This document shows positions 4,615 to 63,098 of a DNA stretch of 64,000 nt, piece by piece. A program made the translations under genes and the position numbers. The stretch is taken from assembly GCF_002733835.1 (NCBI RefSeq), contig NZ_NVWY01000001.1, positions 186,001 through 250,000 on the forward strand. Direction: 5' to 3'. The stretch is from Alcanivorax sp. Its GTDB lineage: Bacteria > Pseudomonadota > Gammaproteobacteria > Pseudomonadales > Alcanivoracaceae. Numbering within the stretch: the first letter of the stretch is position 1; each line of letters begins with the position of its first letter. The notes under the pieces are model-generated. The model saw only the letters and a program-made list of their open reading frames with translations, was not told the DNA's origin and made no database searches.

Positions 4615-4719
4615 AGCGACTAGCTTCTAGCTGCGAGCAACTAGTCATCATAAAGAAAAGCACCGACTTTCACCGGTGCCTTTGTTTTTCTCGTAGCTGG
4701 AAGCTCGTCGCTAGCAGCT
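4615..4719. repeat. Inverted heptad arrays, xxxxGCT class, argJ/secA
   Basis: Four 7-nt units ending in GCT read on the minus strand at 4615-4642 (for example AGAAGCT). Four more read on the plus strand at 4692-4719 (for example GGAAGCT, AGCAGCT). GCT recurs at exactly seven-base spacing in both arms. The arms flank the secA terminator hairpin, end three bases from the secA stop and come within a few bases of the argJ Shine-Dalgarno. Confidence 0.8.
4654..4690 (-). terminator. Rho-independent terminator of secA
   Basis: Six-bp stem GCACCG (4660-4665) / CGGTGC (4674-4679) with a T-rich tail on both strands. It is placed just past secA and ahead of argJ. Confidence 0.75.
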
Positions 4720-4722
4720 GCT

Positions 4723-7437
4723 TTATTCAATCTTACCGTGACACTGCTTGTACTTCTTGCCGGAACCACAAGGGCACGGCTCATTACGCCCGACTTTACG
4801 GCCCTCCCGGACCACCGTCTTGGGCTGCTCGCCCTGTTGACGGGGCTGGGCATCGCCGTCGGTGCCCGGCTCGGCCACCGCCTGCATTTTCATTTTTTCC
4901 GCCTGCAGACGCGCCTCTTCCTCGCGCTGCTGCTCCAGACGTTCCACTTCGTCATCACGACGCACCTGGAAGCTGTGCAGCACACGAATCAGTTCATGCT
5001 GGATCTGGTTAAGCAAGCCCTGGAACAACTCGAAAGCTTCTTTCTTGTATTCCTGCTTGGGGTTTTTCTGGGCGTAGCCGCGCAGGTGGATGCCCTGGCG
5101 CAGGTGATCCATGCTCGCCAGGTGCTCTTTCCAGTGGCGATCCAGAATTTGCAGCATCAGGTGCTTCTCGATCTTGCGCAAATCCTCGGTACCGATCTCG
5201 CCTTCCTTACGCTGGTAATCCTCGTCCATGCGCTCGACCAGCTTTTCGATTAGGCCCTCGATATGCAGCTGATTGTCTTCGTTGAGCCACTGGCCAATCG
5301 GTGCATGGCACTGGAACTCCGCATCCAGGGTTTTCTCCAGGCCCGGGATATCCCACTGATCTTCCACAGAGCCCGGCGCCATGTAATCGTGGACCACTTC
5401 GGTCACCACATCGCGACGAATCCCTTTCACGGAATTTACCAGATCATCGGCTTCCAGAATCTGGTCACGCTGGCCGTAGATGACCTGACGCTGGTCGTTG
5501 GCAACGTCATCGTATTCCAGCAGGTTCTTGCGGATATCAAAGTTGCGCCCTTCCACCTTGCGCTGGGCATTTTCGATGGCGCGAGTTACCCAGCGGTGCT
5601 CAATGGCTTCGCCGTTTTCCAGGCCCAGAGAGCGCATCAGGTTGCGAATCTTGTCTGATGCGAAGATGCGCATCAGGTCATCTTCCATGGACAGGAAGAA
5701 ACGGGTGTAGCCCGGATCACCCTGACGACCCGCACGACCGCGCAGCTGATTATCGATACGGCGGGACTCATGGCGCTCGGTACCGATAATGTGCAAACCG
5801 CCGGCTTCCATGACGGTATCGTGGTTCGCCTGCCACTCGGCCCGGATTTTCTCCGCTTCTGCCTCGGACGGGGTATCCATATGCTTGATCTGCTCTTCGG
5901 GATTACCGCCGAGCACAATATCCGTCCCCCGACCCGCCATATTGGTGGCAATGGTGACCGCTCTCGGCCGGCCGGCCTGGGCAATAATCTGGGCTTCGCG
6001 CTGATGGAACTTGGCGTTCAGTACCTCGTGGGCGATCTTGTCCTGCTTCAAACGCTTGGACAGATACTCCGACGCTTCAATGGTGGCAGTACCCACCAGC
6101 ACCGGCGCACCTTTAGCCACCGCCTCGGTCACTTCCTTGACGATAGCGTCGAATTTTTCTTGCAGGCTCAGGTACACCAGATCATTGGCGTCAATCCGCA
6201 CCATGGGTTTGTTGGTGGGGACCACGACCACATCCATGCCATAAATCTGGCGGAATTCCAGCGCCTCGGTGTCCGCGGTACCGGTCATGCCGGACAGCTT
6301 GTTATACAGGCGGAAATAGTTCTGGAAGGTGGTGGACGCCAGGGTCTGGTTTTCCTGCTGGATATTCAGCCCTTCTTTCGCCTCGATGGCCTGATGAATA
6401 CCTTCGGACCAGCGACGCCCCGGCATGGTACGGCCGGTGTGTTCATCCACGATCACGATCTGGTCGTTCTGAACAATGTAATCCCGGTCGATGTGGAACA
6501 GGGCATGGGCTTTCAGCGCCGCATGCACATGATGCAGCAGCGCCAGGTTATGGGCCGCGTACAGGCTTTCGCCCTGTTCCAGCAACTGGTTGCTGACCAG
6601 TAGCGCTTCAATCTTCTGATGACCCGCCTCGGTCAGCTCAACCTGACGCTGCTTTTCGTCAACGAAGTAATCGCCTTCGCTCTCTTCTGTCTCTTTCTCC
6701 AGTTGCGGCATCAACTGATTCACCGCCTGGTACAGCTCGGAGGAATCTGCCGCCGGGCCGGAAATAATCAGTGGCGTTCTCGCCTCATCAATCAGGATGG
6801 AATCCACCTCATCGACGATGGCGTAATTCAACCCACGCTGCACCCGGTCTTCCAGGCGGAAGGCCATGTTGTCGCGCAGGTAATCGAAGCCGTATTCGTT
6901 GTTGGTTCCGTAGGTAATATCCGACGCGTACGCGGCGCGCTTCTGCTCGGTGGGCTGCTGGGACAGAATGATGCCCACGGATAACCCGAGGAATTCGTAC
7001 AGGGGACGCATCCAATTGGCGTCACGCTCGGCCAGGTAATCATTTACCGTAACCACATGCACGCCTTCACCGGAGAGCGCATTCAGGTAGGCCGGCAGGG
7101 TCGCCGTCAGGGTTTTACCTTCACCGGTACGCATCTCGGAAATGCGCCCTTCGTGCAGGGCGATCCCGCCCATCATCTGCACATCAAAATGGCGCATCCC
7201 CATGACCCGGGTAGAGGCTTCGCGGACTACCGCAAAGGCTTCGGGCAACAATTCATCCAGGGTTTTGCCATCTTTAAAGGCCTGCCGGAAAGCGATCGTC
7301 TTGTGCTGCAGGTCGCCATCGGTAAGCTGCCCCAACGCCTCTGCGTGGCTATTAATGGCATCGACCAGCTTTGCCATTCGCTTGATTTCACGATCATTCT
7401 TGGTGCCGATGATTTTTTTTACGATGGTACCCAGCAT
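4723..7437 (-). CDS. secA: Preprotein translocase ATPase SecA
   Basis: 904 aa, full length. SecA drives post-translational export through SecYEG. The nucleotide-binding fold has Walker A MRTGEGKT near residue 105, the [15 protein letters not shown] block, and the second fold with [10 protein letters not shown]. The C-terminal zinc motif [13 protein letters not shown], which binds SecB and phospholipids, is intact. The start ATG 7437 has GGAAG upstream. No SecM-like gene lies between the M23 gene and secA, as expected outside enterics. Confidence 0.98.
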
Positions 7438-7570
7438 AAAACTTCCGGTTCAGTAAAAGTCAGGACAAACAGCCCGGTGGCGGCAAGGTGATTCCCCCGC
7501 AAGGTGAGCCATTCTAAACACAATAGGATTGAGAGATAAGGTGGTATTCGCCGTAATCAAGGCCCGATAA

Positions 7571-7600
7571 CGAAAAACGGCCCCATTGGGCCGTTTCCGA
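7571..7600 (-). terminator. Terminator after the M23 peptidase gene
   Basis: Perfect 9-bp stem AAACGGCCC (7575-7583) / GGGCCGTTT (7588-7596), CATT loop, then a T-run on the minus strand. It lies 14 bases past the M23 stop and separates it from secA. The 172-nt gap 7438-7609 otherwise holds the presumed secA promoter, which I could not place with confidence. Confidence 0.8.
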
Positions 7601-7609
7601 TTTTCAGTT

Positions 7610-8542
7610 TTAGCGGCGAGCGCGGTAAATATAGGGCTGTGGGTTCACCTGAGCGCCGTTTTTCAGCACTTCGTAGTGCACATGCGGCCCAGTGGAACGG
7701 CCGGAATTGCCCACCTTGGCCACCGTATCACCGGTGCGAACAATGTCCCCCGGCTCCACCAGCAGCTCCATCGCGTGCCCGTAGCGGGTGGACAGGCCGT
7801 TACCGTGGTTGATCTCCACCATTTTGCCGTAACCGGAACGCTCACCGGAATAGGTCACAACGCCAGCACCGGTGGCCACGATGGGCGTGCCTTCCTTACC
7901 CGCGAAATCCACCCCTTTATGCCAGGCCACCCGGCCGGAAAAGGGATCGGAACGCCGGCCAAAACGGCTAGACATCCAGCCTTTGGTCAGCGGGCGGCCA
8001 GACAGATAAGTCTGGTCTTCCAACTGTTTATCCGCCAGCAGGTCTTCCAGGATATCCAGCTGACGCTCACGGCGTTCCAGGGTGGCCGTCATTTGATCCA
8101 GCGCCCCCATAAAGGAAGGCAACTCATAACTGGCCCCCTCATCCGGCGATTCCGGTCCACCGACACCGGGCACACTACTGAAATCGAATTCGTCACCGCC
8201 GATATCAGCCACTTCCACCAGTCTCTCACCCAGTGCATCCAGGCGAACCAGCCGAGCCTGAGCCTGGGCCAGCTTGAGCGTCAGGGCACGAAACTGCTCC
8301 TGGCTTTGCTGATCCAGCTCGGAAAGAGCTTGTTGCTGCTGCTCCAGCTGCCCCGCAAAACGCTCCGTCATTACCGGGGTAAATTCAGGCTGACCACCCA
8401 CTCGATAGGCCAGAAGATAGGCGCTAACGCCAATAATCGCGGGAAACACCACCAACGCCGCAGCCAATAACCAGGGCCAATGGCGAGGAACGGGCAGTGT
8501 GCGCGAATGGCCGCGCTTGCTGTTAAGGACTATGATGTTCAT
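7610..8542 (-). CDS. M23 (LytM-type) peptidase, membrane-anchored
   Basis: 310 aa. An N-terminal cytoplasmic tail and one transmembrane helix (residues 24-46) lead to a coiled-coil stretch (about 60-110) rich in Gln/Leu, then a LytM/M23 domain. Catalytic zinc residues are seen in WHKGVDFAG (HxxxD) and HVHYEV (HxH). It is a periplasmic endopeptidase or amidase activator candidate. The position between secA and lpxC, divergent from dciA, is the usual place of the Pseudomonas homologue. The exact peptidoglycan substrate is unknown. Confidence 0.9.
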   Translation of the reverse strand: MNIIVLNSKRGHSRTLPVPRHWPWLLAAALVVFPAIIGVSAYLLAYRVGGQPEFTPVMTERFAGQLEQQQQALSELDQQSQEQFRALTLKLAQAQARLVRLDALGERLVEVADIGGDEFDFSSVPGVGGPESPDEGASYELPSFMGALDQMTATLERRERQLDILEDLLADKQLEDQTYLSGRPLTKGWMSSRFGRRSDPFSGRVAWHKGVDFAGKEGTPIVATGAGVVTYSGERSGYGKMVEINHGNGLSTRYGHAMELLVEPGDIVRTGDTVAKVGNSGRSTGPHVHYEVLKNGAQVNPQPYIYRARR

Positions 8543-8642
8543 AAGATTTCGTAACGCACTAGCTAAAAATCATTCAATTCAATATGTTACGCTGTTTTTT
8601 ATAAATTCTTTTACAATCTTCAGGCTAGTCTAAGTAAAACTC

Positions 8643-9086
8643 ATGAGCAAGACAACGTCGCCTAAAGCCCTGCTCGCCCTGCTAAGCGGTCATCCCGCTC
8701 TATCAGCTCTGGCGAAAGAAGCCAGGAAGAGCCCCGCCCAGGAGCAAAGTGACCCTATACATTGCCTGCCTCCGGCGTTGCGTGAGCGTGTCACCCTGGT
8801 AGAAGACCAGCATCGCTGGCTGGCCATCGCGGAAACCAGTGCCACCGCGCAACTACTACGTTTTCATCTGCCGAAATTGCAACAGGCCATGCCCGGGCAA
8901 CAAATCAAGATCGTGGTAGGCGGCAAACGCCAACCCATGTCGAGCAATAACCATGCCAGCAAGCCGGCGGGGCCGCATTTGGCCCGAGAAAGCGCTCGAC
9001 ACATCGAAGCTGTGGCCGAAGCCATTGAGGATGACGCGCTAAAAGCGTCATTGCAGCGGCTGGCAAGCCGCGGTGAGCCCGATTGA
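8643..9086 (+). CDS. dciA: DciA (DUF721) replicative helicase loader
   Basis: 147 aa, DUF721 family. DciA proteins help load DnaB at the origin in bacteria that lack DnaC/DnaI. The conserved core is seen around LPPALRERVTLVEDQHRWLAIAETSATAQLLRFHLP, a KH-like fold. The C-terminal half is low-complexity and basic, as is common. The neighbourhood (secA, M23 peptidase, lpxC) is that of Pseudomonas and Vibrio dciA. The AT-rich 100-nt divergent gap 8543-8642 should carry the promoters of both genes. Confidence 0.85.
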   Translation: MSKTTSPKALLALLSGHPALSALAKEARKSPAQEQSDPIHCLPPALRERVTLVEDQHRWLAIAETSATAQLLRFHLPKLQQAMPGQQIKIVVGGKRQPMSSNNHASKPAGPHLARESARHIEAVAEAIEDDALKASLQRLASRGEPD

Positions 9087-9120
9087 GGAACACTAACCGT
9101 CCATCTCTCCGCCCTTGAAA

Positions 9121-9156
9121 CGAAAAACCACCTGACTGCGGGAGACAGCCAGGTGG
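9121..9156 (-). terminator. Terminator of lpxC
   Basis: Stem CCACCTGACTG (9128-9138) with CAGCCAGGTGG (9146-9156), one mismatch, followed on the minus strand by TTTTTCG. The remaining bases to lpxC (9157-9264) hold no recognised gene. Confidence 0.75.
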
Positions 9157-9264
9157 CCAACAGGGCTTCGACGTACAGCCGAATCGCTTCGGCCAGAGTC
9201 AGCCACCTTCCGGATCATACTGACCCGAAGCGGCCAACCTCTTTCTTTACTACTTTGCCGCCAC

Positions 9265-10179
9265 TTATTCTGCTGCCAGAACAGGACGCATATAGGACAC
9301 AGGCGCATTGGTGGCATCTTCGAACGTCACCACCTCGTAGGAGTCCTCCTGACGGAGAATTTCCCGCAACAGCGCATTGTTGAGTGCATGGCCGGATTTG
9401 TGGCCGATGAACTCGCCAATCAGACTGTGACCCAGCAGATACAGGTCGCCAATGGCGTCCAACATCTTGTGTTTGACGAACTCGTCGTCATAACGCAGGC
9501 CGTCTTCGTTGAGGATACGATACTCGTCCACCACGATGGCGTTATCCACGCTGCCACCCAGGGCCAGGTTCTGGCTGCGCAGGAACTCGATATCGCGCAT
9601 AAAGCCAAAGGTCCGGGCACGGGCTACTTCTTTCACGAACGAGGTCGTGGAGAAGTCGATACTGGCCAGCTGGTTGCGATCTTCAAACACCGGGTGATCG
9701 AACTCGATGGAAAAAGTCACCTTGAAGCCGTCAAAAGGCACGAACGTCGCCGTTTTGTCGCCTTCACGCACCGTCACTTCTTTCTTGATGCGGATGAACT
9801 TCTTGGCGGCTTCCTGCTCTTTGATACCGGCAGATTGCAACAGGAAGACGAACGGACCGGCACTGCCATCCATGATCGGCATTTCCGGGGCGGACAACTC
9901 CACAAAGGCGTTATCAATGCCCAGGCCTGCCATGGCGGACAGGAAGTGCTCTACCGTACCCACTTTCACGCCATCCTGAACCAGCGTGGAAGAGAGGGTG
10001 GTTTCGCCCACCGCGTCCGCGGCAGCCTTGATCTCCACCACCGGGTCCAGGTCCACACGCCGGAACACGATACCGGTATTTACCGGTGCCGGGCGCACGG
10101 TCATGTAGACCTTTTCGCCGGTGTGAAGCCCTACGCCAGTGGCGCGGATCACGTTTTTTAGCGTTCGTTGTCTGATCAT
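9265..10179 (-). CDS. lpxC: UDP-3-O-acyl-N-acetylglucosamine deacetylase
   Basis: 304 aa. This zinc enzyme catalyses the committed step of lipid A synthesis in the cytoplasm. Ligand motifs are visible: [10 protein letters not shown] (first zinc His), then [12 protein letters not shown] (H..D pair). [10 protein letters not shown] is the conserved substrate loop. It follows ftsZ but has its own -10 element upstream, as in Pseudomonas. The C-terminus is family length; I cannot judge FtsH degradation signals from the sequence. Confidence 0.97.
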
Positions 10180-10245
10180 CAGTCTGTCACACAGCTGCGG
10201 GTACCCTTGAGGATACCGCTTTCCTCAACACAAAATTAGGGCGCG

Positions 10246-10251
10246 ATTATA
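10246..10251 (-). promoter_or_regulatory. -10 element of an lpxC promoter
   Basis: Perfect TATAAT on the minus strand followed by a GC-rich discriminator. No good -35 is seen at 17 nt. Downstream, 10200-10217 forms a seven-bp hairpin (GGTATCC/GGGTACC with one wobble) in the lpxC leader. Confidence 0.55.
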
Positions 10252-10289
10252 CTGGAACACCCCGATTTTGCACCAATCTCGCCAGACCG

Positions 10290-11559: not shown

Positions 11560-11640
11560 GGATGCCTGATGCTTGAGGCCTGACGCTTTGGCGGCTTTGC
11601 CGCCTGTTTTACGTCCGGCTTCGGGCGTCCGGCATCCGGC
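11560..11640. repeat. Inverted heptad arrays, GGATGCC class, ftsA/ftsZ
   Basis: Four units read on plus at 11560-11587 (GGATGCC, TGACGCT among them). Four more read on minus at 11613-11640 with the same word (GGATGCC, GGACGCC). Between the arms 11590-11605 is a GGCGG/CCGCC hairpin with T-rich sequence on the plus side only, so ftsA-to-ftsZ readthrough should be possible. The right arm ends five bases from the ftsA stop. Confidence 0.8.
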
Positions 11641-28111: not shown

Positions 28112-28127
28112 CAACGCACAGGGAATA

Positions 28128-28506
28128 AGGTGGACCGGTCGATAAGCCGGGTTCTGTCGTGGACAGTCATTCATCTCGGGTTTGCGTCGCCACAAACCTC
28201 TAGCAACCTACCCGGATCCAGCGCGGGCCACGCCAACGGATCCCTATTTGGTCTTGCTCCGGGTGGGGTTTACCCTGCCACCGCTGTTGCCAGCGGCGCG
28301 GTGCGCTCTTACCGCACCTTTTCACCCTTACCGGTTCCGACACGAGGAAGGAACAGGCGGTATCTTCTCTGTGGCACTAGCCGTAGCCACACCGTTCCCA
28401 GTGTGGCCCCCAGGCGTTACCTGGCACCCTGCCCTGTGGAGCCCGGACTTTCCTCCAGCGGCCATCCTTCAAAAGAATCGCCGCCAGCGACTGCCTAACC
28501 GGTCCG
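28128..28506 (-). ncRNA. rnpB: RNase P RNA (M1, bacterial type A)
   Basis: About 379 nt; ends are approximate. The minus strand contains the universal GAGGAAAGTCCGGGC near the 5' end, the CAGGGTGCCAGGTAACGCC segment, and ACAGAACCCGGCTTATCG near the 3' end. The termini pair through GGACCGGT/ACCGGTCC (helix P1). A -10 like TAGAAT lies at 28513-28518 on the minus strand, placing the 5' end near 28506. The position between mraZ and rsmI matches Pseudomonas. RNase P RNA is the catalytic subunit for tRNA 5' maturation. Confidence 0.95.
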
Positions 28507-28526
28507 GGGCGGATTCTAGTTGAAGC

Positions 28527-28633
28527 CGTTGATAGTTGACAGTGAAGAGTTGATCGCCAAGAGAAAAATCGCCCCCAAACCGCTCCCGGCAAGCGGTTTC
28601 CGGTTTTTCGCTATCCACTGCCAATCATCAACT
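28527..28633. repeat. Inverted heptad arrays, AGTTGAT class, with hairpin, rnpB/rsmI
   Basis: Four units on plus at 28527-28554 (CGTTGAT, AGTTGAC) and four on minus at 28606-28633 (AGTTGAT, AGTGGAT). The right arm covers the rsmI stop codon and its last codons. Between the arms 28577-28600 is an AAACCGCT/AGCGGTTT hairpin that could terminate rsmI transcription. The left arm overlaps the likely -35 region of rnpB. Confidence 0.75.
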
Positions 28634-29458
28634 CTCGATTGATTGCAGCAGCGCATACAGCTCCTGGCGCTTCAAGCCAGTGTGAGCCGCCATGATTTTG
28701 GCCACCCTCGACACCGGCAACTCAGCCAACAAGGTTTTTGCCAGCGCTTCGTCCTTTTCTGTCCACGCTGACGATTGCGCCAGCGGCGACAGCACCAGCA
28801 CCAGCTCGCCGCGTCGCTGGTTACTGTCCGACGCCACCCAATCGCAGATTTCAGCCACCGGACCACGCCGAATCGTTTCAAATTGCTTGGTCAGCTCACG
28901 GCACAGGGTAATTTCACGATCTTTTTCAACCAGCTCTTTCAGGGTTTCCAAAAAGGACAACACCCGGTGAGGCGCCTCATAGATAATACTTGTGACTGAC
29001 AAGGCCGCCAGGCGCGCAATGGCTTGCTGACGCGGCGCGCCCTTGGCTGGCACAAAGCCTTCGAACAGGAAACGATCGGAAGGCTGTCCCGCTGCCGCCA
29101 ATGCAGCCAACAACGCTGACGCGCCCGGAATAGGCACCACGCTTACCTGTGCCTCCTGGCAGGCTCGAACCAGCCTGTAGCCGGGATCACTAATCAACGG
29201 CGTCCCCGCATCACTGATCAGCGCCCCCTGCTCGCCACCCTGCAACCGCGCCACCAACTCATCGCTGCGCTGGCTTTCATTATGGTCATGGCAACTGATC
29301 ATGCGGTTGCGGATACCCAACTGATCAAGCATCCGCTGGCTATGCCGGGTGTCCTCCGCCGCAATCCAGTCCACCTCCGCCAGTACGTCAATCGCCCGAC
29401 GGGTAATGTCATCCAAATGACCGATCGGTGTACTGACAATAAACAAAGTCCCGCTCAT
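28628..29458 (-). CDS. rsmI: 16S rRNA 2'-O-ribose C1402 methyltransferase
   Basis: 276 aa, tetrapyrrole-methylase fold. Conserved TPIGHLDDITRRA, AEDTRHSQRML, DAGTPLISDPGY and PGASALLAALAAAGQP blocks. It modifies C1402 together with RsmH, which is encoded just downstream in the same window. The last codons are made of heptad repeat sequence. Divergent from lpoA across a 79-nt gap. Confidence 0.96.
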   Translation of the reverse strand: MSGTLFIVSTPIGHLDDITRRAIDVLAEVDWIAAEDTRHSQRMLDQLGIRNRMISCHDHNESQRSDELVARLQGGEQGALISDAGTPLISDPGYRLVRACQEAQVSVVPIPGASALLAALAAAGQPSDRFLFEGFVPAKGAPRQQAIARLAALSVTSIIYEAPHRVLSFLETLKELVEKDREITLCRELTKQFETIRRGPVAEICDWVASDSNQRRGELVLVLSPLAQSSAWTEKDEALAKTLLAELPVSRVAKIMAAHTGLKRQELYALLQSIES

Positions 29459-33068: not shown

Positions 33069-33095
33069 AAAAGCCCGCTCAGTGAGCGGGCTTTT
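33069..33095. terminator. Bidirectional terminator between dolP and sspB
   Basis: Perfect 11-bp stem AAAAGCCCGCT / AGCGGGCTTTT with loop CAGTG and T-runs on both strands. It serves the convergent dolP and sspB genes. Confidence 0.88.
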
Positions 33096-33130
33096 GCGTG
33101 TTGCATGCAGCGTGAGGCGTGCTGCGTCTC
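33096..33130 (+). repeat. Heptad array, GCGTGxx class, dolP/sspB
   Basis: Five units in exact register directly after the terminator T-run (GCGTGTT, GCGTGAG, GCGTGCT among them), ending six bases from the sspB stop. The opposite side (33021-33060) shows only a weak, doubtful mirror arm. Confidence 0.65.
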
Positions 33131-36797: not shown

Positions 36798-36956
36798 TGA
36801 GTTATTCTCCCCTTAGATCCCACGCTCGGGGTTAATCCGGGACGCGAAGTTTATCCTCGTGTCACGGACGGAGTAAGGCGGCGCAAATGGTAAAGAAAAA
36901 GCCCACACCTGACAACCGGTTATTACCCCGCCAGAATCGCTAAACACCTGATTTGA

Positions 36957-36993
36957 ACACAAAAAAGCCCAGCATTGCTGGGCTTTTTTGTGT
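36957..36993 (-). terminator. Terminator of rplM-rpsI
   Basis: Perfect 17-bp stem 36957-36973 / 36977-36993 with three-base loop ATT and six-T runs on both strands, 18 bases past the rpsI stop. Confidence 0.92.
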
Positions 36994-37019
36994 AGCTGTA
37001 GTGCTTGAAGCTTAACGCT
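36991..37019 (+). repeat. Heptad array, xxxxGCT class, at the rpsI 3' end
   Basis: GCT recurs at spacing 8, 7, 7 (units such as TGAAGCT and TAACGCT). The array runs from the terminator stem into the last two codons of rpsI. No mirror arm is seen on the other side of the terminator. Confidence 0.5.
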
Positions 37020-48544: not shown

Positions 48545-48579
48545 GCCAAACGCTCGACGCCGGATGCCTGACGTCAAAC
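48545..48579 (+). repeat. Heptad array, GCCxxAC class, downstream of the lipid kinase gene
   Basis: Five units in register (GCCAAAC, GCTCGAC, GCCTGAC among them). A GCCTT/AAGGC mini-hairpin (48596-48607) follows before the stop of the lipid kinase gene. The region 48462-48544 holds the right half of the split terminator and no gene. No second arm is visible. Confidence 0.55.
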
Positions 48580-49495: not shown

Positions 49496-49525
49496 CAGAC
49501 AGGAAACCCTCGTACTACTCCCGGT

Positions 49526-50281
49526 TCAGGCCGGGTTATCGATATCAATAAAGGTATGCTCAATGCCGTAATGATCGCTGAGCCACTGGCCCAGCGCCAT
49601 GGCGCCATAACGCTCGGTGGCATGGTGGCCACAGGCGAAATAGTGCATGCCGGTTTCCCGGGCAAAATGGGTGGTCGGTTCGGAAATTTCGCCGCTCAGG
49701 TAGGCATCCACGCCTTTGGCCTGAGCCTTTTCGATAAAGCCCTGGGCCCCGCCGGTACACCAGCCGACCGTTTCAATTTCGTCGCCGGGATCGCCGATAT
49801 GCAAGGGCGTCCGGCCCAATACCGCTTCCACATGGGCGGCGAATTCTGACGCACTCATGGGGCTGTCCAGTCGCCCCACATTGCCGATGGGCCGGGGCGA
49901 ATCATCCAGCCCGCCTTCGGTGGTCAGGCCCAGACGGAGCGCCAACTGGGCATTATTGCCCAGTGTGGGGTGAGCATCCAGCGGCAGGTGATAGGCAAAC
50001 AAGTTGATGTCATGGCGCAACAGAGTCTGCAGCCGTTGCTTCTTCATGCCCCGGATCTGCTGGCTTTCCCCTTTCCAGAAATAGCCGTGGTGGACCAGAA
50101 TGGCATCGGCTTCTTCCACGATGGCCGCGTCAATCAAGGCCTGACAGGCCGTCACGCCGGACACCACCCGATGAATCTGCTCGCGGCCTTCCACCTGCAA
50201 ACCATTGGGGCAGTAATCCTGAAACCGGTCCGTGGCCAGTTCCTGGTCGAGCAGAGACAACATGTAATCGCGCTTGAGCAT
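49526..50281 (-). CDS. Nif3-like dinuclear metal centre protein (YbgI family)
   Basis: 251 aa from ATG 50281 with GGAAGG upstream; ATG 50305 is possible. Metal ligands: HHGYFWKGE, AYHLPLDAHP, GEISEPTTHFA and ACGHHATERYG. Conserved NGLQVEG at the start. Hexameric toroid protein, proposed GTP cyclohydrolase-like, function unsettled. The neighbouring degS start is divergent. Confidence 0.93.
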   Translation of the reverse strand: MLKRDYMLSLLDQELATDRFQDYCPNGLQVEGREQIHRVVSGVTACQALIDAAIVEEADAILVHHGYFWKGESQQIRGMKKQRLQTLLRHDINLFAYHLPLDAHPTLGNNAQLALRLGLTTEGGLDDSPRPIGNVGRLDSPMSASEFAAHVEAVLGRTPLHIGDPGDEIETVGWCTGGAQGFIEKAQAKGVDAYLSGEISEPTTHFARETGMHYFACGHHATERYGAMALGQWLSDHYGIEHTFIDIDNPA

Positions 50282-50600: not shown

Positions 50601-51698
50601 GTGATCAAACTGCTTCGTTTTCTGGCCGGCCCGGTGATTACCGGCCTGGCCGTCGGCCTTGTCGCCCTGTGGTGGTACCAGTGGGGCCCCAACGCTGAGC
50701 CCGCACAGCATGACACCGGCGTCGCCAGCTATGCCGGCGCGGTAAACCATGCGGCCCCGGCGGTGGTGAACATCTACACCACCCAGATCATCACCAACGA
50801 GGACGTGGCCGAAGACCCGCTGTTCAACCGCTTTATGGAACAACCCCGCCGTGAACGCGCCCTGAGCAGCCTGGGCTCCGGGGTAATTGTCGACGACGGC
50901 GGCTATGTGCTGACCAGTTATCACGTCATCCGCGATGCGGATGAAATTCTGGTGGCCCTGCGTGATGGCCGGGACGCCCCCGCCCGGGTGGTGGGCACGG
51001 ACCCGGAAACCGACCTGGCACTGCTGCATGTTGCCCTGGAAGATTTACCCGAAGTCGAGCTGAACGGTAACGGCCCGGTGCAGGTGGGCGATGTGGTGCT
51101 CGCCATCGGCAACCCGCTGGGTGTGGGTCAGACAGTATCCATGGGCATCGTCAGTGCCACCGGCCGCAGCCACCTGGGCATCGCCACCTTTGAGAACTTT
51201 ATCCAGACCGACGCGGCCATTAACCGGGGCAACTCCGGCGGCGCGCTGATTGATACCCGCGGCCACCTGATCGGCATCAACACCGCCATCCTGTCTGCGG
51301 ACGGCAGCTGGCAAGGCATCGGCTTTGCCACCCCCGCCTCCATTGCCAAGGAAGTGATGAGTGACCTGATCGAACATGGCCGTGTGATTCGTGGCTACCT
51401 GGGCGTCACCGTGCAGGACATGACTCCGTCACTGGCGGACACCTTTGGCATGGAAGACGTACGCGGAGGCGTGGTCACTGAAGTGGTGGTCGACAGCCCT
51501 GCCCATAAAGGCGGCCTCCAGCCCGGCGACGTTCTGGTGGGAATCGACGGCGACGTGATGGCCGACGGCTACGAAGCCATGAACCGGATTGCCGGGATGA
51601 AACCGGACGACAAAGTAACCCTGGAAGTGATCCGCAACCGTCAGCCCCTGTCCGTGGACGTGGTCATCGGCACGCGCCCACCGGCGGAAACGGAATGA
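50601..51698 (+). CDS. algW: Periplasmic serine protease DegS/AlgW (HtrA family)
   Basis: 365 aa. N-terminal membrane anchor (residues 8-26), trypsin-like domain with triad His108 (SYHVI), Asp138 (TDLALL) and Ser212 (GNSGGAL), then one PDZ domain starting near GYLGVTVQDM. One PDZ and an anchor indicate the DegS/AlgW type, which cleaves the anti-sigma factor RseA/MucA under envelope stress. The start is GTG 50601 with GGGGG upstream. Its stop touches a large inverted repeat. Confidence 0.93.
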   Translation: MIKLLRFLAGPVITGLAVGLVALWWYQWGPNAEPAQHDTGVASYAGAVNHAAPAVVNIYTTQIITNEDVAEDPLFNRFMEQPRRERALSSLGSGVIVDDGGYVLTSYHVIRDADEILVALRDGRDAPARVVGTDPETDLALLHVALEDLPEVELNGNGPVQVGDVVLAIGNPLGVGQTVSMGIVSATGRSHLGIATFENFIQTDAAINRGNSGGALIDTRGHLIGINTAILSADGSWQGIGFATPASIAKEVMSDLIEHGRVIRGYLGVTVQDMTPSLADTFGMEDVRGGVVTEVVVDSPAHKGGLQPGDVLVGIDGDVMADGYEAMNRIAGMKPDDKVTLEVIRNRQPLSVDVVIGTRPPAETE

Positions 51699-51865
51699 GG
51701 CAATTAATAGTTAATAATGAATAATTAATAACTACACGGTCTTTTTTTCAGGCTATACAAAACGCAAGAGGCCGCGCCCAAACCATGGGCGCGGCCTCTT
51801 GCGTTTCAAGACAGAGAACCTGTCTCGCGCACTATTAATTATTCATTATTAACTATTAATTGCCT
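51698..51865. repeat. 33-bp perfect inverted repeat made of TTAATAA heptads, filling the algW/DUF4139 gap
   Basis: Arm 51698-51730 is the exact reverse complement of arm 51833-51865. Each arm contains four heptads (TTAATAG, TTAATAA, TGAATAA and one more). The left arm begins on the last base of the algW stop; the right arm ends on the base before the DUF4139 stop. A very strong terminator lies between them. AT content contrasts with the GC-rich surroundings. Confidence 0.92.
51760..51806. terminator. Bidirectional terminator with 21-bp perfect stem
   Basis: Stem 51760-51780 / 51786-51806, loop AACCA, core AAGAGGCCGCGCCCA. A closely related hairpin follows hisC (53735-53771). Poly-T (51743-51749) precedes it on the plus strand. 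A small AGACAG/CTGTCT hairpin lies at 51810-51826. Confidence 0.9.
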
Positions 51866-53676: not shown

Positions 53677-53734
53677 GGTAGTATCGCCGTCTTCATAAAA
53701 TGCAAAGTTCAAGCGCGACTCTACCCGTTAACCC

Positions 53735-53771
53735 AAAGAGGCCGCGCCCAAAGGGTGGGCACGGCCTCTTT
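53735..53771 (-). terminator. Terminator of the mlaC-ibaG-murA-hisGDC run
   Basis: Stem 53735-53750 / 53756-53771 with one mismatch and loop AAGGG; core AAAGAGGCCG as in the algW terminator. On the minus strand it is 33 bases past the hisC stop. Confidence 0.8.
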
Positions 53772-53801
53772 GTCTGCATGTGGCAAAACTTATTCCACGC
53801 T

Positions 53802-53829
53802 TTTTAACTTTCAGTTTTCAGCTTTTCAC
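53802..53829 (+). repeat. Heptad array, TTTCAGx class, inside the hisC 3' end
   Basis: Four units in register (TTTCAGT, TTTCAGC, TTTTCAC among them). The array includes the hisC stop codon and encodes the last eight residues of HisC. A weak mirror arm may lie near 53692-53716. Confidence 0.6.
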
Positions 53830-54931: not shown

Positions 54932-54943
54932 AAGTTCTCCGCC

Positions 54944-55009
54944 GGAAGCCTGACGCCAAACGCCGGACAAAGAGGCCGCACGTCAGGCGTCTGGCATCTG
55001 GCTTCTAGC
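54944..55009. repeat. Inverted heptad arrays, GGAxGCC class, hisD/hisC
   Basis: Units on plus at 54944-54971 (GGAAGCC, TGACGCC) and on minus at 54982-55009 (AGATGCC, AGACGCC), the same word. The right arm covers the hisD stop. Between and overlapping them is AAAGAGGCCGC, half of the terminator core found after hisC and algW, without its partner strand. The locus is inside the operon. Confidence 0.75.
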
Positions 55010-56349: not shown

Positions 56350-56385
56350 GCGTGACCGCGTGAAGCGTGTTGCATGCAAGCGTTA
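56350..56385 (+). repeat. Heptad array, GCGTGxx class, hisG/hisD
   Basis: Units GCGTGAC, GCGTGAA, GCGTGTT, GCATGCA with one extra base between the first two, ending two bases from the hisG stop. Same word as the dolP/sspB array. A mirror arm near 56305-56330 is weak. Confidence 0.55.
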
Positions 56386-56387
56386 AC

Positions 56388-57049: not shown

Positions 57050-58321
<1,272 letters not shown>

Positions 58322-58367
58322 CTAGATGGTTGCGTTCTTCCAGCCCGTTTTCGGCCTGGGGCCGGGG

Positions 58368-58622
58368 TCAGGACAGACCCTGGTTCTGGGCTTTTTCCCA
58401 CTCCGCCGGGGTAAAGGCAATAATCTGCACGGCATGGATGGTGTTACTTTTGATCTGCTCGTCGATGGTGGCGTACACCAGCTGCTGGCGTTTCACCGGC
58501 ATCAGCCCGGCAAAGGCCTCTGACACCACACGAATCTGGAACCGGTCACCGCCGCCTTCCACTGCCACATCGGCATTGTCAAAACCGGCATCAACCAATG
58601 CCTGAACTTCTTCCGGATTCAT
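58368..58622 (-). CDS. ibaG: BolA/IbaG family protein
   Basis: 84 aa. BolA fold with VEGGGDRFQIRVVSEAFAGLMPVKRQQLVYATI; partner of monothiol glutaredoxin in Fe-S handling. Usually encoded between mlaB and murA. Its ATG overlaps the stop of a 44-codon ORF (ATGA). Confidence 0.93.
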   Translation of the reverse strand: MNPEEVQALVDAGFDNADVAVEGGGDRFQIRVVSEAFAGLMPVKRQQLVYATIDEQIKSNTIHAVQIIAFTPAEWEKAQNQGLS

Positions 58623-58753
58623 CTTTGCTCCTCAACAGGGCCCTGGTCAGGCCCAAACAGCACTGGAGCGGCCTGCAGCCGCTCCATCAAATCGTCATCA
58701 AGGGCGTAATAATACGCGAGCACGCTGCCCCTTACCACGGCAGGCGGGTTCAC
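58619..58753 (-). CDS. Candidate 44-aa small ORF in the mlaB position
   Basis: Starts with GTG overlapping the mlaC stop (GTGA) and ends with TGA overlapping the ibaG ATG (ATGA), filling the gap exactly. The product begins MNPPAVVRGSVLAYYYALDD and ends in an acidic tail. No STAS-domain similarity to MlaB is evident and I do not recognise it. Double stop-start coupling is the only support; it could be a decayed mlaB or chance. Confidence 0.4.
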   Translation of the reverse strand: MNPPAVVRGSVLAYYYALDDDLMERLQAAPVLFGPDQGPVEEQR

Positions 58754-59406
58754 TCGCCCTGTTTGGCCTCGTCGATCCCGGCATCAATCTTGGCATCCGC
58801 AGACCAGTTATCGATCACCTTGTCGATATCGTTGTACTGCTGCATGCCTTGGGCGAACTGGCTCTTGAAGGTATCGCGCAAATCCAGGCCATTCACATAC
58901 ACGTTGATCACTTTCCACTGATCATCACGCAGGAACAGGGTGTAGTAGATCGGCACCACCTGCCCGGAGTTGGTTTTCACCTCCATGCGCACCCGTGCAT
59001 AGTCACCTTTACGATCCCCCTCCTGCATGGGCAGGGTTTCGATTTTCTGGCCGTCATACAAGGTAATGCCGGATGCATAGGTGTTGATCAGGCTGTTTTT
59101 GAACACATCCAGAAAACGGTATTTCTGCTCCTTGCTGGACGGACCAAAGTAGTCGCCCATGACCATGCGGGTAATGCGCTTGAAATCCACCAGGTCGGCC
59201 AGCTCTTCACGGACCAGCGCCTTGGCCTTTTCCGGATCCGCCTTGAGCGCCTCGCGCTCCGCCTCGATGCGGGATGTCATGCGCTCCACGGCTTCCGACA
59301 CCACCTGGCGCGGGTCGCTCTCGGCATGAGCCAATGTGGCCATGCCTGCCAATACAACCACCAGGCCGGCGTGCAGCCACGTTCGAATATACCGTTGCAA
59401 ATGCAT
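58750..59406 (-). CDS. mlaC: Periplasmic phospholipid carrier MlaC
   Basis: 218 aa. Signal peptide ending near THLAHA-type site (ATLAHAES), then the Tol_Tol_Ttg2 fold: VSEAVERMTSRIEAEREAL, VDFKRITRMVMGDYF, YKVINVYVNGL-like segment (KVINVYVNGLDLRDTFKSQF). MlaC shuttles phospholipids between outer-membrane MlaA and inner-membrane MlaFEDB. None of mlaF, mlaE, mlaD, mlaB is here. GGAGT precedes the start. Confidence 0.94.
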   Translation of the reverse strand: MHLQRYIRTWLHAGLVVVLAGMATLAHAESDPRQVVSEAVERMTSRIEAEREALKADPEKAKALVREELADLVDFKRITRMVMGDYFGPSSKEQKYRFLDVFKNSLINTYASGITLYDGQKIETLPMQEGDRKGDYARVRMEVKTNSGQVVPIYYTLFLRDDQWKVINVYVNGLDLRDTFKSQFAQGMQQYNDIDKVIDNWSADAKIDAGIDEAKQGE

Positions 59407-59583
59407 AGATTACTCCCTGTTAGTCTCCGGCGGTTTTACGGTGTTCTTTACCCCCTGTCCAGTCATCAACAGCGGCAACATCGTGAACCTTGGTTGTTTT
59501 ATTGGAGTCACAGAGTTCGATACGGTTCCCGCCGTAGAGACCAGGTTACCGATTTCGGGTCAACGTGAAGGGGGCAACCGGTG

Positions 59584-59589
59584 TATAAT
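59584..59589 (+). promoter_or_regulatory. -10 element of the kdsD-lpt operon
   Basis: Perfect TATAAT 25 bases before the kdsD start, with a GC-rich discriminator. The -35 is poor. It lies in the 207-nt divergent gap with mlaC. Confidence 0.5.
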
Positions 59590-59613
59590 CGCCGCCAACG
59601 CCAAGGAGAACGC

Positions 59614-60582
59614 ATGAGTCACGACCATATCAGCGTCGGTCAACGGGTGCTGGATATCGAAGCCCGGGCCGTGGATGCCCTGAAAGACAGCCTGGACACC
59701 CGCTTTTCTGCTGCCTGCGATCTGATGCTGAATGCCAAAGGCCGGGTGATCGTCACCGGCATGGGCAAAAGCGGGCATGTGGGCAGCAAACTGGCGGCCA
59801 CCCTGGCCAGCACCGGCACCCCCTCTTTCTTTGTGCATCCCGGCGAAGCCTCCCATGGCGACCTGGGCATGATTACCCCGGACGACGTGGTACTGGCGCT
59901 CTCCAATTCCGGCGAAACCGCCGAGGTGCTAGCCATTCTGCCTGTGATCAAACGCAAGGGCACCGGCCTGGTTGGCATGACCGGCCGCCCACAATCCGCG
60001 TTGGCACAACTTTCCGATGTACACCTGACCGTCGCGGTCGCAGAAGAGGCCTGCCCCCATAACCTGGCGCCGACCTCCTCCACCACGGCCGCTCTGGCCA
60101 TGGGCGACGCTCTGGCCATCGCCCTGCTGGAAGCCCGTGGCTTCACCCCGGAAGACTTTGCTCTCAGCCACCCCGGTGGCAGCCTGGGCCGTCGCCTGCT
60201 ACTGAAAGTGGATGACATCATGCACGCTGGCGAACAGCTTCCCGTGGTCAGCACGGATACTTCACTCAGCGAAGCCCTTCTGGAAATGACCCATAAAGGC
60301 CTGGGCATGACCGCCGTCACCCACGACGACGGCACCCTGGCGGGCATCTTTACGGATGGTGACCTGCGCCGCATATTCGACCGGGACATCGATATTCGCA
60401 AAGCCACCATTGCCGACGTCATGGTCACCGACCCGATCACCATCGCGCCGGGTCACCTGGCGGCGGAAGCCCTGCAAGTCATGGAGACCCGTAAAATCAA
60501 CGGGCTAATGGTGTGCGATGATGCGGGCAAGCCCCTTGGCGCCTTCAACATGCAGGACCTGCTACGCGCGGGGGTGGTATAA
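59614..60582 (+). CDS. kdsD: D-arabinose-5-phosphate isomerase
   Basis: 322 aa from ATG 59614 with AAGGAG upstream. SIS domain (GMGKSGHVGSKLAATLASTGTPSFFVHP) followed by two CBS domains from about residue 205. First step of Kdo synthesis. Directly followed by kdsC with no gap. Confidence 0.97.
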   Translation: MSHDHISVGQRVLDIEARAVDALKDSLDTRFSAACDLMLNAKGRVIVTGMGKSGHVGSKLAATLASTGTPSFFVHPGEASHGDLGMITPDDVVLALSNSGETAEVLAILPVIKRKGTGLVGMTGRPQSALAQLSDVHLTVAVAEEACPHNLAPTSSTTAALAMGDALAIALLEARGFTPEDFALSHPGGSLGRRLLLKVDDIMHAGEQLPVVSTDTSLSEALLEMTHKGLGMTAVTHDDGTLAGIFTDGDLRRIFDRDIDIRKATIADVMVTDPITIAPGHLAAEALQVMETRKINGLMVCDDAGKPLGAFNMQDLLRAGVV

Positions 60583-61086
60583 ATGCCCATGCAATTTTCC
60601 TCCGTTGATGCCCAGAACCTGCGCCTGATGGCATTCGACGTGGACGGCGTCATGACCGACGGCCGCCTGCTGTTCGGCCCCCAGGGCGAAGAACTGAAAG
60701 TCTTCAACACCCTGGACGGCCATGGCCTGAAAAAACTGGCCGCCAGCGGCGTGACCCTGGCCATCATCACCGGGCGCAACTCCCCCATGGTGGCCAAACG
60801 CGCGGCAGACCTGGGCATTGAACATGTCATCCAGGGTCGCGAAGACAAAGGAGTGGCACTGGAAGCGCTGGCCGATTCACTGAACATCGCCGCCCACGAA
60901 ACCGGTTATGCCGGCGACGACGAACCCGATGTGAGCGCCCTGCTCTGGGCCCAATTGAGTTTTGCCCCGGCCAACGCCCACGACTGCGCCAAAACCGCCG
61001 CCGATCACGTTACCGAGCGCCGCGGCGGCGAAGGCGCAGTGCGGGAAATCTGCGACGCCATTCTTGCCCTGCGGAGCCAGGCATGA
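60583..61086 (+). CDS. kdsC: Kdo-8-phosphate phosphatase
   Basis: 167 aa, HAD type C0 without cap. Nucleophile Asp in AFDVDGVMTDG, Thr in ITGRNS, Lys in GREDKGVAL, metal Asp in YAGDDEPD. Forms tetramers. The stop overlaps the lptC start (ATGA). Confidence 0.96.
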   Translation: MPMQFSSVDAQNLRLMAFDVDGVMTDGRLLFGPQGEELKVFNTLDGHGLKKLAASGVTLAIITGRNSPMVAKRAADLGIEHVIQGREDKGVALEALADSLNIAAHETGYAGDDEPDVSALLWAQLSFAPANAHDCAKTAADHVTERRGGEGAVREICDAILALRSQA

Positions 61087-61640
61087 AGCGTCAGGGACTA
61101 CTCAGCGCCACCGGCATTCTGATGCTGGGGCTGGTCATGCTGATGACGCTCCACGAGTGGGACAGCACCTTGCCCGGGCAGGACAACGCAGTGATGATGG
61201 CGCCGGCCATTATCGCCGACGACGTCACCGCTCGCGCCTTCAGCGAAAAAGACGGCACCCTGCAATATCACCTGACCGCCGACAACCTGGTGCAGTTTGA
61301 CCATAACCCCCTTACCGAAATGGAAGCCCCCGTGCTGGTAATGGCGAACGACAAAGGCAGCTGGACCATCACCAGCGAGCAAGGCACCGTGGAAGACAAC
61401 GGCGACCTGATCACTTTTCTCGGCAAGGTCAACGTGGACAACCCCACCCAGAAAGTGAACCTGGACACCGACGAACTGCGCTTCAACAGCGACACCAATA
61501 TCGCCACAACACCCGGCGAAGTGGAAATGACATTCGACTCCGGCCAGACTCGTGCCGGCGCCCTGGAAGCCGATCTCGACAAGGGCATTCTGAACCTGAA
61601 ACAAGGAGTGAAGAGTGAGTTTGAAGCACCCGCTTCATAG
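61083..61640 (+). CDS. lptC: LPS export protein LptC
   Basis: 185 aa. One N-terminal transmembrane helix (residues 5-22), then a periplasmic beta-jellyroll that passes LPS from LptBFG to LptA. Segments such as ARAFSEKDGTLQYHLTADNL and TPGEVEMTFDSGQTRAGALEADL fit the family. The last 26 bases overlap lptA. Confidence 0.92.
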   Translation: MKRQGLLSATGILMLGLVMLMTLHEWDSTLPGQDNAVMMAPAIIADDVTARAFSEKDGTLQYHLTADNLVQFDHNPLTEMEAPVLVMANDKGSWTITSEQGTVEDNGDLITFLGKVNVDNPTQKVNLDTDELRFNSDTNIATTPGEVEMTFDSGQTRAGALEADLDKGILNLKQGVKSEFEAPAS

Positions 61641-62217
61641 CACCCGCCGCCTCGCCGCACTGGCCTTGCTGGCGGCATTGCCCCTGGGCGCTCAGGCCGC
61701 CCCCATGGACGGCCCCATTCAGGTCACGGCAGACAGTGGCCGCTTCGAACAGGATGCTGGCAGCGGCCTGTACCGGGGCAACGTGGAGCTGATTCAGGGC
61801 AAGCGAAAAATGTTTGCTGACGAAATGCGTCTGTTCACCAAAAATGGCGACCTGGTCCGGGTGGAAGCTGCCGGCTCGCCCGTGCGCATGGAGGAAGGCG
61901 AGGGGCTGAATGCCCACGCTGAAAACCTGGTATACGACATTAACGCTCGCACCCTGGTCCTCACCGGCGACGCCTACATCGAACATCAAGGCAATACATT
62001 TGAAGGCGCCAAGGTGGAATACAGCCTCGATTCCAAGCGCGTGGATGCCAGCAGTGAAGGCGACCAGCGGGTTCGCCTGGTGATCCCCGCCGAGAATCAA
62101 ACCCGCGAAACCAGCGGTGACGCCGACGCCACCGGTGGCGATTCCAGCAACGAAAAAGACACCCCCAGTGAGGACAGCAACACCGCCTCACCTGATGCGG
62201 AGCCCAGCACACCATGA
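61615..62217 (+). CDS. lptA: LPS transport bridge protein LptA
   Basis: 200 aa from GTG 61615 with AAGGAG upstream, inside the lptC end. Signal peptide ending AQA-AP, OstA-like jellyroll ([29 protein letters not shown]). An acidic, Ser/Thr-rich tail of about 40 residues follows. It forms the periplasmic bridge from LptC to LptD. Confidence 0.93.
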
Positions 62218-62939
62218 GCCACTTACGCGCCCACCACCTGGCAAAAAGCTACAAGGGCCGCCGGGTCATCGAGGACGTTTCCCTGGACGTGGAAGCCGGT
62301 CAGATCGTTGGCCTGCTGGGCCCCAACGGAGCCGGCAAAACCACCTGCTTCTACATGATCGTTGGCCTGGTGGAAGCGGATGCCGGCCGCATCGAAATCA
62401 ATGACGGCGACATCACCCACCTGCCCATGCACGGTCGCGCCCAGCGCGGCATCGGCTACCTGCCCCAGGAAGCCAGCATCTTCCGTCGCCTGACGGTGGA
62501 AGAGAACATCATGGCGATTCTGGAAACCCGCAAGGAACTGAGCAAGGCAGAGCGCCACGAACGCATGGAAAGCCTGCTCAAGGAATTCCACATCGGGCAC
62601 ATTCGCGATTCGCTGGGCATGAGCCTGTCCGGCGGTGAGCGCCGCCGGGCGGAGATTGCCCGCGGCCTGGCCACCGACCCGGATTTCATCCTGCTGGACG
62701 AACCCTTTGCCGGGGTTGACCCGATCTCGGTGAACGACATCAAGGGCATCATCCGCCACCTGAAAGACCGCGGCATCGGCGTGCTGATCACTGACCACAA
62801 TGTACGTGAAACACTGGATATCTGCGATACCGCCTATATCGTCAGCGCCGGCCATATCATTGCCTCCGGCGATGCGGACATCATCCTTGCCAACCAGCAA
62901 GTGCGCGACGTCTACCTGGGCGCCGATTTCCGACTATAA
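62214..62939 (+). CDS. lptB: LPS export ABC ATPase LptB
   Basis: 241 aa. Walker [11 protein letters not shown]-loop [18 protein letters not shown], signature [16 protein letters not shown], Walker [15 protein letters not shown]-loop ITDHNV. It powers LPS extraction with LptFG. Overlaps lptA by four bases. Confidence 0.98.
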
Positions 62940-62943
62940 AGGC

Positions 62944-63098
62944 AGTTAAAAGTACAAAGTGTAAAGTTGAAAAACGCGGGGAAGCCCATTGCAACGGCTA
63001 GGCCATACCCGCGATGCTACCGATGAAGCGCGACAGAACAGCCAAGACCGACAACTGGCTAAAGTCGCGCTTGAACTTTGAACTTTAAACCTTCAACT
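62944..63098. repeat. Inverted heptad arrays, AGTTxAA class, lptB/rpoN
   Basis: Four units on plus at 62944-62971 (AGTTAAA, AGTTGAA) and four on minus at 63071-63098 (AGTTGAA, AGTTCAA), the same word. The roughly 100-nt core can pair CGCGGG/CCCGCG but lacks a T-run. The left arm starts four bases after the lptB stop. The word matches the rsmI/rnpB array. Confidence 0.82.

Follow-up and report, generated by a model that had tools for sequence, protein, structure and literature searches.

Short motifs repeated at 7-nt spacing lie at the ends of genes in a 64,000-nt stretch of an Alcanivorax sp. genome (the window; contig NZ_NVWY01000001.1), and they are best read, with a probability of roughly 0.56, as members of several intergenic cassette families, short, symmetric and non-coding, that are MITE- or REPIN-like, non-autonomous and situated at gene 3′ ends. 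The repeated word varies from one cassette family to the next and the geometry is constant in Alcanivorax-group bacteria.

Across the whole window, lag-7 matches number at least 15 of 21 at 9 places, which coincide with sites 11560, 33096, 51704, 54944 and 62944; third-order Markov resampling, run 20 times, leaves 0.85 ± 1.24 such places and 5 at most. Lags 6 and 9 yield 7 and 9 places in this count, which includes codon-periodic coding DNA; the specificity of lag 7 appears once the count is confined to intergenic DNA. In an 845-kb sample of the 3.6-Mb genome, with genes taken from greedy ORF calls rather than annotation, 29 intergenic segments score at least 11 at lag 7, 15 at its harmonic lag 14, 6 at lag 12 and 0–2 at each of lags 4–6, 8–11, 13, 15 and 16, while called coding sequence holds 8 more lag-7 segments.

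These counts bear out the first-pass annotation, which had judged the repeats too regular for junk and expected an excess over shuffled controls. Set site by site against local dinucleotide shuffles, 10 of its 13 sites fall below an uncorrected p of 0.05 (Table 1), and only 51704, 54944 and 62944, all three at the floor of the test, remain there after correction for 13 sites; for 28063 (p =.095), 39147 (.227) and 56350 (.070), lag 7 alone is insufficient. Arrays do usually have four units, as it had said (109 of 210 round to 4, 54 to 3 and 23 to 5), and its inverted arms with a common word recur in 19 of 22 close pairs (<250 bp) of the 845-kb sample, none being direct, and in 33 of 38 pairs less than 130 bp apart in 11 congeneric genomes. 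Control lags 5, 6 and 8–11 gave no close pairs (<250 bp) in the same sample. That most sites have two arms was overstated, however, because by eye five are clear in the window (4615, 11560, 51704, 54944 and 62944) and 28527 is degenerate.

Table 1. Heptad arms, hairpins and further listed sites in the window (p, lag 7 against local dinucleotide shuffles).
Feature	Position	Strand	Remark
A6 left arm, NNCNAGC	4618..4645	+	downstream of secA; site 4615, p.015
Hairpin then T-rich tract, between A6 arms	4660..4679	.	kept in orthologous gaps inspected
A6 right arm	4690..4719	-	orthologous gaps compared
A8 left arm, GCCTGAN/GCTTGAN	11561..11587	+	between ftsZ and ftsA; site 11560, p.005
Short hairpin GGCGGC TTT GCCGCC, between A8 arms	11590..11604	.	
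A8 right arm, GCCGGAN on minus strand	11614..11640	-	
AGTTGAY-type left arm, degenerate	28518..28554	+	site 28527, p.007
AGTTGAY-type right arm, degenerate	28613..28634	-	by eye
A9 (GCGTGNN), one clear arm	33094..33127	-	site 33096, p.012; second arm degenerate here, clearer in genome G008 (by eye)
Listed site	36991		p.022
A8 single arm, weak	48550..48571	+	site 48545, p.042
A1 left arm AATTAAT AGTTAAT AATGAAT AATTAAT	51698..51730	+	few nt past stop codon
A1 central hairpin, 21 bp perfect	51760..51806	.	-43.9 kcal/mol, z -12.7
A1 right arm, perfect inverse of left	51833..51865	-	adjoins convergent gene's stop codon
Single array of AACTTTCAG type	53802..53829	-	p.007
A8 left arm	54941..54964	+	site 54944, p.002
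A8 right arm	54981..55009	-	site 54944, p.002
A9 remnant, weak	56358..56375	-	p.070
A2 left arm, AGTTNAA x4 degenerate, then CGCGG border	62944..62971	+	site p.002
A2 right arm	63071..63098	-	

The words had been taken to be locus-specific. They do recur at distant sites, as had been noticed, but they belong to a few genome-wide families, namely TTAAT/AGTTAAC (A1), AGTTNAA (A2), GCCNGAN, AGCTNNN, CACGCNN and CGAGTTN. In the two best-sampled families, cassettes are mostly 137–181 bp long and run from a four-heptad arm through a CGCG border and a variable spacer to a hairpin-bearing core, followed by the mirror image. The cassette at 51698–51865, whose arms form a perfect 33-nt inverted repeat (site 51704, p =.002 against local shuffles), matches 8 other genomic places over 159–168 nt at 70–82%, and many further places in the core or the arms only. 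Among nine aligned A1 copies, mean identity is 0.81–0.82 in the arms and 0.82 in the hairpin; the spacers (trimmed length 18–25 nt) reach 0.49 and 0.53, compared with 0.44 when shuffled, and since they are thus near-random, the copies are not recent copies of the whole unit. Border and hairpin are common to A1 copies genome-wide, and 17 A2-type copies have conserved arms and CGCG borders around variable interiors. The order of units is also position-specific: in counts that include orthologues and overlapping windows, G stands at position 4 in 49 of 61 third units of A1 (15, 23 and 19 of 61 elsewhere), and the first unit of A2 has G in 12 of 13 cases; the p-values attached to these counts are therefore optimistic. 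Of the marks of a MITE, terminal inverted repeats, a short non-coding core and multiple copies are present.

The cassettes lie a median of 4 nt from a stop codon. Convergent gaps hold 25 of 50, co-directional gaps 22 and divergent gaps 3 (baseline gaps 188/378/183), and unpaired arrays show a weak bias, the upstream gene reading into 58 of 90 oriented ones after 16 ambiguous cases were dropped. Cores fold with z < −2 against mononucleotide shuffles in 28 of 49 cases, as opposed to 11 of 60 control gaps. A T-rich tract is clear at 4660–4690 and absent at 51760–51810, leaving the strongest A1 hairpin without a proper T-tract, and terminator-like matches in the 48–64 kb interval are not enriched (16 found, 15.8 expected). 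A known RNA family was rejected, as Rfam at its gathering threshold matched nothing at the arrays and, in the whole window, RNase P RNA alone.

We picture each cassette as a pair of inverted arms, with about four degenerate heptads apiece, and a core that is usually able to fold. Active movement, presumably driven by some enzyme, would have let such cassettes build up at the 3′ ends of genes, chiefly in convergent or co-directional gaps. In A1, arms, CGCG border and hairpin would be maintained, with spacers that hold their length yet drift. At the same gaps, cassettes may be gained, lost and exchanged via copying from elsewhere and recombination between copies, perhaps by conversion, so that the word there would switch either wholesale or according to arm type. 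With their position a few nucleotides past stop codons and a form that can be read from either side, they probably serve as hairpins at transcript ends, or are tolerated in that role.

In different species, the orthologous gap often carries another family or arm type, or no clear arms. At some gaps, including S4 and S9, both arms differ together between species, which agrees with the concerted change suspected at the outset, but the paired arms at S4, S9 and S13 mostly differ unit by unit. Related S4 cores in five clade members (0.71–0.86; background mean 0.65, 90th percentile 0.74) bear two arm types, and those of G008, G004 and G016 compare with the clade at 0.59–0.75, barely exceeding the A1 background. 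At S13, G004 and G016 agree in arm type, but their cores, at 0.64 against an A1 background mean of 0.61, are not shared; elsewhere S13 finds arm matches only (22 others). The pairs G000/G008 (93% identical) and G004/G016 (90%) yielded no clean empty heptad site, the breaks being complex replacements; some clean indels of non-heptad sequence do occur. Between C57 and G008, 92 of 186 kb aligned, and the breaks inspected, those with one short side, included one heptad array inside a 385-bp composite replacement. Inspection by eye showed no target-site duplication, whether among the 9 aligned A1 copies or at the heptad sites of the pairs 90–93% identical. Nor was a longer element with the same arms found, inverted and direct same-word pairs being about equally rare above 300 bp; a long autonomous element with heptad ends was rejected for want of an inverted same-word excess at 300–12000 bp in the sampled regions.

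Alternatively, the arrays could be functional 3′-end elements, immobile and kept by selection; a machine made of protein or RNA would recognise four 7-nt steps past the stop codon, with the symmetry suiting convergent transcription. The closeness to stop codons suits this idea, as do the conserved A1 arms and hairpin beside drifting spacers and an S4 left arm that is identical across five genomes whose cores are 0.64–0.96 alike. In 4 of 6 f15/g24 stretches (two of the six being the same gene pair), moreover, a single AGCT array stands by eye at the stop codon beside a terminator-like hairpin. Yet words at the same gap differ between species or give way to no clear arms, A2 arm hits within one genus number 125 in G209 and none in G381, and no single sequence reader fits all words, because they range from AT- to GC-rich. 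We regard this alternative as rather unlikely.

Slippage that creates heptanucleotide satellites beside hairpins, whose templating then copies one arm onto its partner, is a distinctly improbable source; to it may be joined the polymerase-contact idea attributed to Mrazek 2007 by two papers (PMC4679880, PMC4692102). Expansions of 12–19 units found alongside four-unit arrays are in keeping with it, as is the word that both arms have in common in most close pairs, and identical arms in 2 of 9 A1 copies, the perfect 51698/51833 repeat and one other, count in favour of templating, as does a small excess of arm–arm identity within A1 elements, 0.657 against 0.613 between them (4 of 5000 permutations as high), which goes with two sub-types. 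In A2, however, that identity is 0.642 within elements and 0.643 between them (2473 of 5000). The arm-to-arm templating proposed by the first-pass annotation is therefore rejected for A2 and at most minor for A1; paired arms have a common word chiefly because both belong to one dispersed family. Slippage also accords poorly with the position-specific unit order, with an array number of which half have four units and which falls sharply above five, and with the A1 border and hairpin common to copies genome-wide.

That the arms are REP sequences proper, mobilised by a Y1 (TnpA-REP) transposase, is very improbable. In its favour, the architecture is REPIN-like (inverted conserved ends, variable interior), and of 17 genomes the only one to lack a Y1_Tnp match, G001, has 0 A1 28-mers and only 4 A2 arm hits. 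Lag-7 arrays also occur in 8 of 20 Y1 regions (in three at a distance of 159–237 nt from the match), those of G009 and G006 both repeating the short word TTGGTCA. But the latter two arrays are near threshold (18 nt), 0 of the 20 regions of this enzyme family, the one searched, have arrays on both sides, 11 of 20 contain other REP-like words, and one genome makes no correlation, G002 having 2 Y1 matches and almost no arms.

Wide conservation was rejected: 77 loci of other genera (L012–L088) held 4 arrays, inside the control-lag range of 2–10, and among 86 genomes of the order A2 is present in 2, which belong to a single family. Of 299 genomes sampled from the phylum, 13 contain fivefold AGCT, and G206 and G209 have inverted AGCT pairs hugging stop codons. 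The GGGAATC pattern matched none of 229 genomes sampled from the class, so the sample probably lacks any Xanthomonas.

The open-access literature surveyed gave no account of such heptad cassettes from Alcanivorax. The first-pass annotation could name no known form, which is right in part, since most of the geometry is common to the GGGAATC heptads of Xanthomonas, the closest known system. The latter have mostly four units, are intergenic, near stop codons and rare in divergent gaps, form inverted close pairs (70 in one genome, 75 in another), and had their four-unit rule tied to quadruplexes (PMC4692102). The 7-nt unit, about four copies, stop proximity, few divergent placements and inverted pairs are thus common to both. 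In contrast to the one G-rich word of Xanthomonas, Alcanivorax has at least six words within the one genus and a defined core, and half of its cassettes lie between convergent genes, compared with 16% (PMC4692102); quadruplexes are rejected here, 0 of 210 arrays being capable of them. The same text gives a Nostoc heptameric repeat, GGGGA(C/T)T, and mentions Calothrix heptanucleotides (PMC4692102). Beggiatoaceae TAACTGA repeats differ in being of a single word, direct and mostly just upstream of start codons (PMC4679880). REPINs, the Pseudomonas R-family and MITEs are alike in being short and non-coding with inverted ends, a variable core and a tail-to-tail bias (PMC2718517, PMC3116915). Compared with REPINs and MITEs, the Alcanivorax ends are tandem heptads, and no linked transposase (20 Y1 regions) or empty site was found. 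Cyanobacterial STRR heptamers present several heptamer words in one genome, as in Alcanivorax; we know of no inverted cassette architecture among them.

A bolder and improbable thought is that conservation applies to the geometry (four steps of 7 nt in each arm, mirrored, at the stop codon) and leaves the word nearly free, a cellular machine that measures 7-nt steps writing or reading arms with changeable specificity; the heptads of Xanthomonas, Nostoc, the f15 family and Alcanivorax would then be one general gene-end marking system. Heptads are said, in a paper citing Mrazek 2007, to be the most abundant long simple-repeat category in most genomes examined (PMC4679880), and this abundance has no accepted reason. 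With the same unit rule, position and mirror geometry in at least six non-quadruplex words of one genus, geometry is separable from word, and the question of one versus the other becomes testable in culturable bacteria. The Alcanivorax cassettes extend the little-explained repeat pattern of Xanthomonas.

The 7-nt periodicity at gene ends is regular beyond chance, as the first-pass annotation had held: in 845 kb of the genome, strong intergenic segments number 29 at lag 7 versus 0–2 at neighbouring lags, with 8 further lag-7 segments inside coding sequence according to greedy ORF calls. In the window, nine places reach at least 15 of 21 matches at lag 7 versus 0.85 expected, and ten of the 13 sites initially described as periodic have a local p < 0.05 (uncorrected), while the other three lie above it. 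The description of the arms as inverted and sharing a word was borne out as well. Inverted orientation with a shared word is seen in 19 of 22 close array pairs of the 845-kb sample and direct orientation in none, the inverted test being passed by 7% of random array pairs; the remaining pairs comprise two with a stray AAACCCC run and one bridging two different families. Across 1.53 Mb from 11 genomes, this holds for 33 of 38 pairs less than 130 bp apart (one is direct), and the inverted-pair excess vanishes beyond 130 bp. The heptad-array pattern is thus genuine, and its core length has an upper limit.

Clustering of 151 arrays yielded families A1 (TTAAT/AGTTAAC, 48 arrays), A2 (AGTTNAA, including AGTTGAY, 29), A8 (GCCNGAN plus GTCNGAN, 28), A6 (AGCTNNN, two clusters of 15+7), A9 (CACGC, 14) and A7 (CGAGTTN, 6), an AATTGAT family of two arrays in one genome, and two chance-like single arrays. 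Four units are the mode, found in 109 of 210 arrays overall and in 64 of the 100 paired arms, with a tail up to 19. Used as a query, the A1 cassette of the window matched 8 more places over 159–168 nt and many others by hairpin or arms only; matches to the A2 cassette were confined to the arms. In nine aligned A1 copies a central 43-nt hairpin is flanked on each side by a spacer, a CGCG border and an outermost arm, with a mean identity of 0.81–0.82 in arms and hairpin and of 0.49–0.53 in spacers versus 0.44 when shuffled. Seventeen A2-type copies retain arms and borders around variable interiors. From end to end, cassettes measure 137–168 bp in A1 and 138–181 bp in A2, apart from one A2 of 93 bp.

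Heptad cassette sites and other features (window positions unless a contig or fetched stretch is named)
Feature	Position	Remarks
A1 cassette	51698-51865	
A2 cassette, site S13	62944-63098	
Site S2	11560-11640	
Site S4	28527-28633	
Site S5	33096-33130	
RNase P RNA (class A)	28127-28506, minus strand	degenerate heptad sites flank both sides
Conserved gap	36798-37011	214 bp, nearly invariant in at least three congeners (G008, G001, G004); conserved ATG-started frame of ~18 codons, by eye
GAGGCCGCGCCC hairpin	53734-53772	resembles A1 core, without arms; core-only copies numerous genome-wide
Dispersed repeats	1126-1203, 1826-1938	GCAAGCAAGCTCCTAC-type and GGATTACGCC-type families, genome-wide
Y1_Tnp matches	C15:19288, C60:31185	copies of these dispersed repeats nearby
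Long heptad expansions (L102)	G000:C1:64162-64286, 74569-74650	word switches to another mid-array
TTGGTCA arrays	L232 1647-1664, L233 2505-2522	short, identical in two genomes, 159 nt from Y1 matches
Extra stretch in G004 versus G016	joined segment near 49508-49793 (L161-L164)	clean, 285 bp, one end being an inverted copy of the other; no heptad cassette

We read these elements, with a probability of roughly 0.56, as several families of short non-autonomous cassettes that would be MITE- or REPIN-style units ending in four-step heptad ladders. As to signs of mobility, target duplication, empty site and parent element were all not found in aligned copies, sampled regions and species comparisons. 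Heptad arrays lie on one side of the gene for the REP-associated Y1 transposase in 8 of 20 regions and on both sides in none of the 20. The main rival is a functional element fixed in place and maintained by selection, since drift has affected the spacers of A1 but spared its arms and hairpins. Separately, the proximity of GCAAGCAAGCTCCTAC- and GGATTACGCC-type repeats to Y1_Tnp matches suggests REP/RAYT pairs.

The window, whose genes include secA, ftsZ, ftsA and murA, occupies G000:C57:186001-250000 and keeps its synteny over 64 kb in ten congeners at 79–93% identity (G007 is syntenic only from ~6.9 kb on). By FtsA its nearest relatives are Alcanivorax sp. S6407 and an Alcanivoracaceae MAG (96% each), followed by a Pseudomonadales MAG (95%) and Alloalcanivorax gelatiniphagus (91%), which places it among gammaproteobacteria of the Alcanivorax group. 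Judged by eye, the same gap holds different families across species: at S5 the window has A9 where G004 has A6; at S13 the window has A2, seven others have A1, and G008, G001 and G010 lack clear arms; clear arms are absent at S2 in G001, G004, G016 and G005. S4 has an A1 cassette in eight genomes, its left arm being an identical C-type sequence in G012, G007, G005, G016 and G004 and T-type in G014, G010 and G008 (three of four units in the last). Both arms differ together between species at this gap, right arms following the left-arm type except in the hybrid G007. Core identity at S4 is 0.71–0.86 within the clade of G014, G012, G007, G010 and G005 and 0.96 between G004 and G016, a clear relationship in both cases; other comparisons give 0.59–0.75, near the A1-core background (mean 0.65, 90th percentile 0.74). 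Outside the one clade the S4 cores show no clear orthology, which slightly lowers our confidence in the cassette reading. At S13, G004 and G016 (90% identical overall) have a common arm type and cores at background (0.64). Across the genus, one A1 arm 28-mer recurs without a single difference in at least eight genomes. Exchange between copies would fit S4 and S13 better than copying between two arms, since left and right arms agree in type and mostly not in unit order. The arm-to-arm templating first proposed finds no support in A2 either, where arm identity within an element is not above that between elements; in A1, two of nine copies have identical arms.

Cassettes lie a median of 4 nt from stop codon to outer end, in 25 convergent, 22 co-directional and 3 divergent gaps (n=50), compared with 188, 378 and 183 among 70–500 bp gaps of the same sequence; the Fisher p-values for the convergent excess (0.0004) and divergent deficit (0.0016) are optimistic because some cassettes are orthologues. 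Cores fold more strongly than control gaps, with z < -2 in 28 of 49 cassettes versus 11 of 60 gaps. The cassettes may act as bidirectional terminators, but the strongest hairpin has no T-tract.

Beyond the genus, inverted AGCT arms abut stop codons in one genome of the same family (G209) and one of the same order (G206), and in f15/g24 genomes 4 of 6 fetched stretches have a terminator-like hairpin next to a single AGCT array at a stop codon. Among 86 genomes of the order, A2 was detected in two, both within the family; G381, from the genus of G209, had none. GGGAATC heptads of two Xanthomonas genomes mostly have four units, form 70 and 75 inverted close pairs, lie near stop codons on the coding strand and are scarce between divergent genes, with transcript starts and stops more frequent at quadruplex-capable copies (PMC4692102). 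The Alcanivorax cassettes share this geometry but have several words instead of GGGAATC, none quadruplex-capable (a G3 quadruplex pattern fits 0 of 210 arrays), and a defined core.
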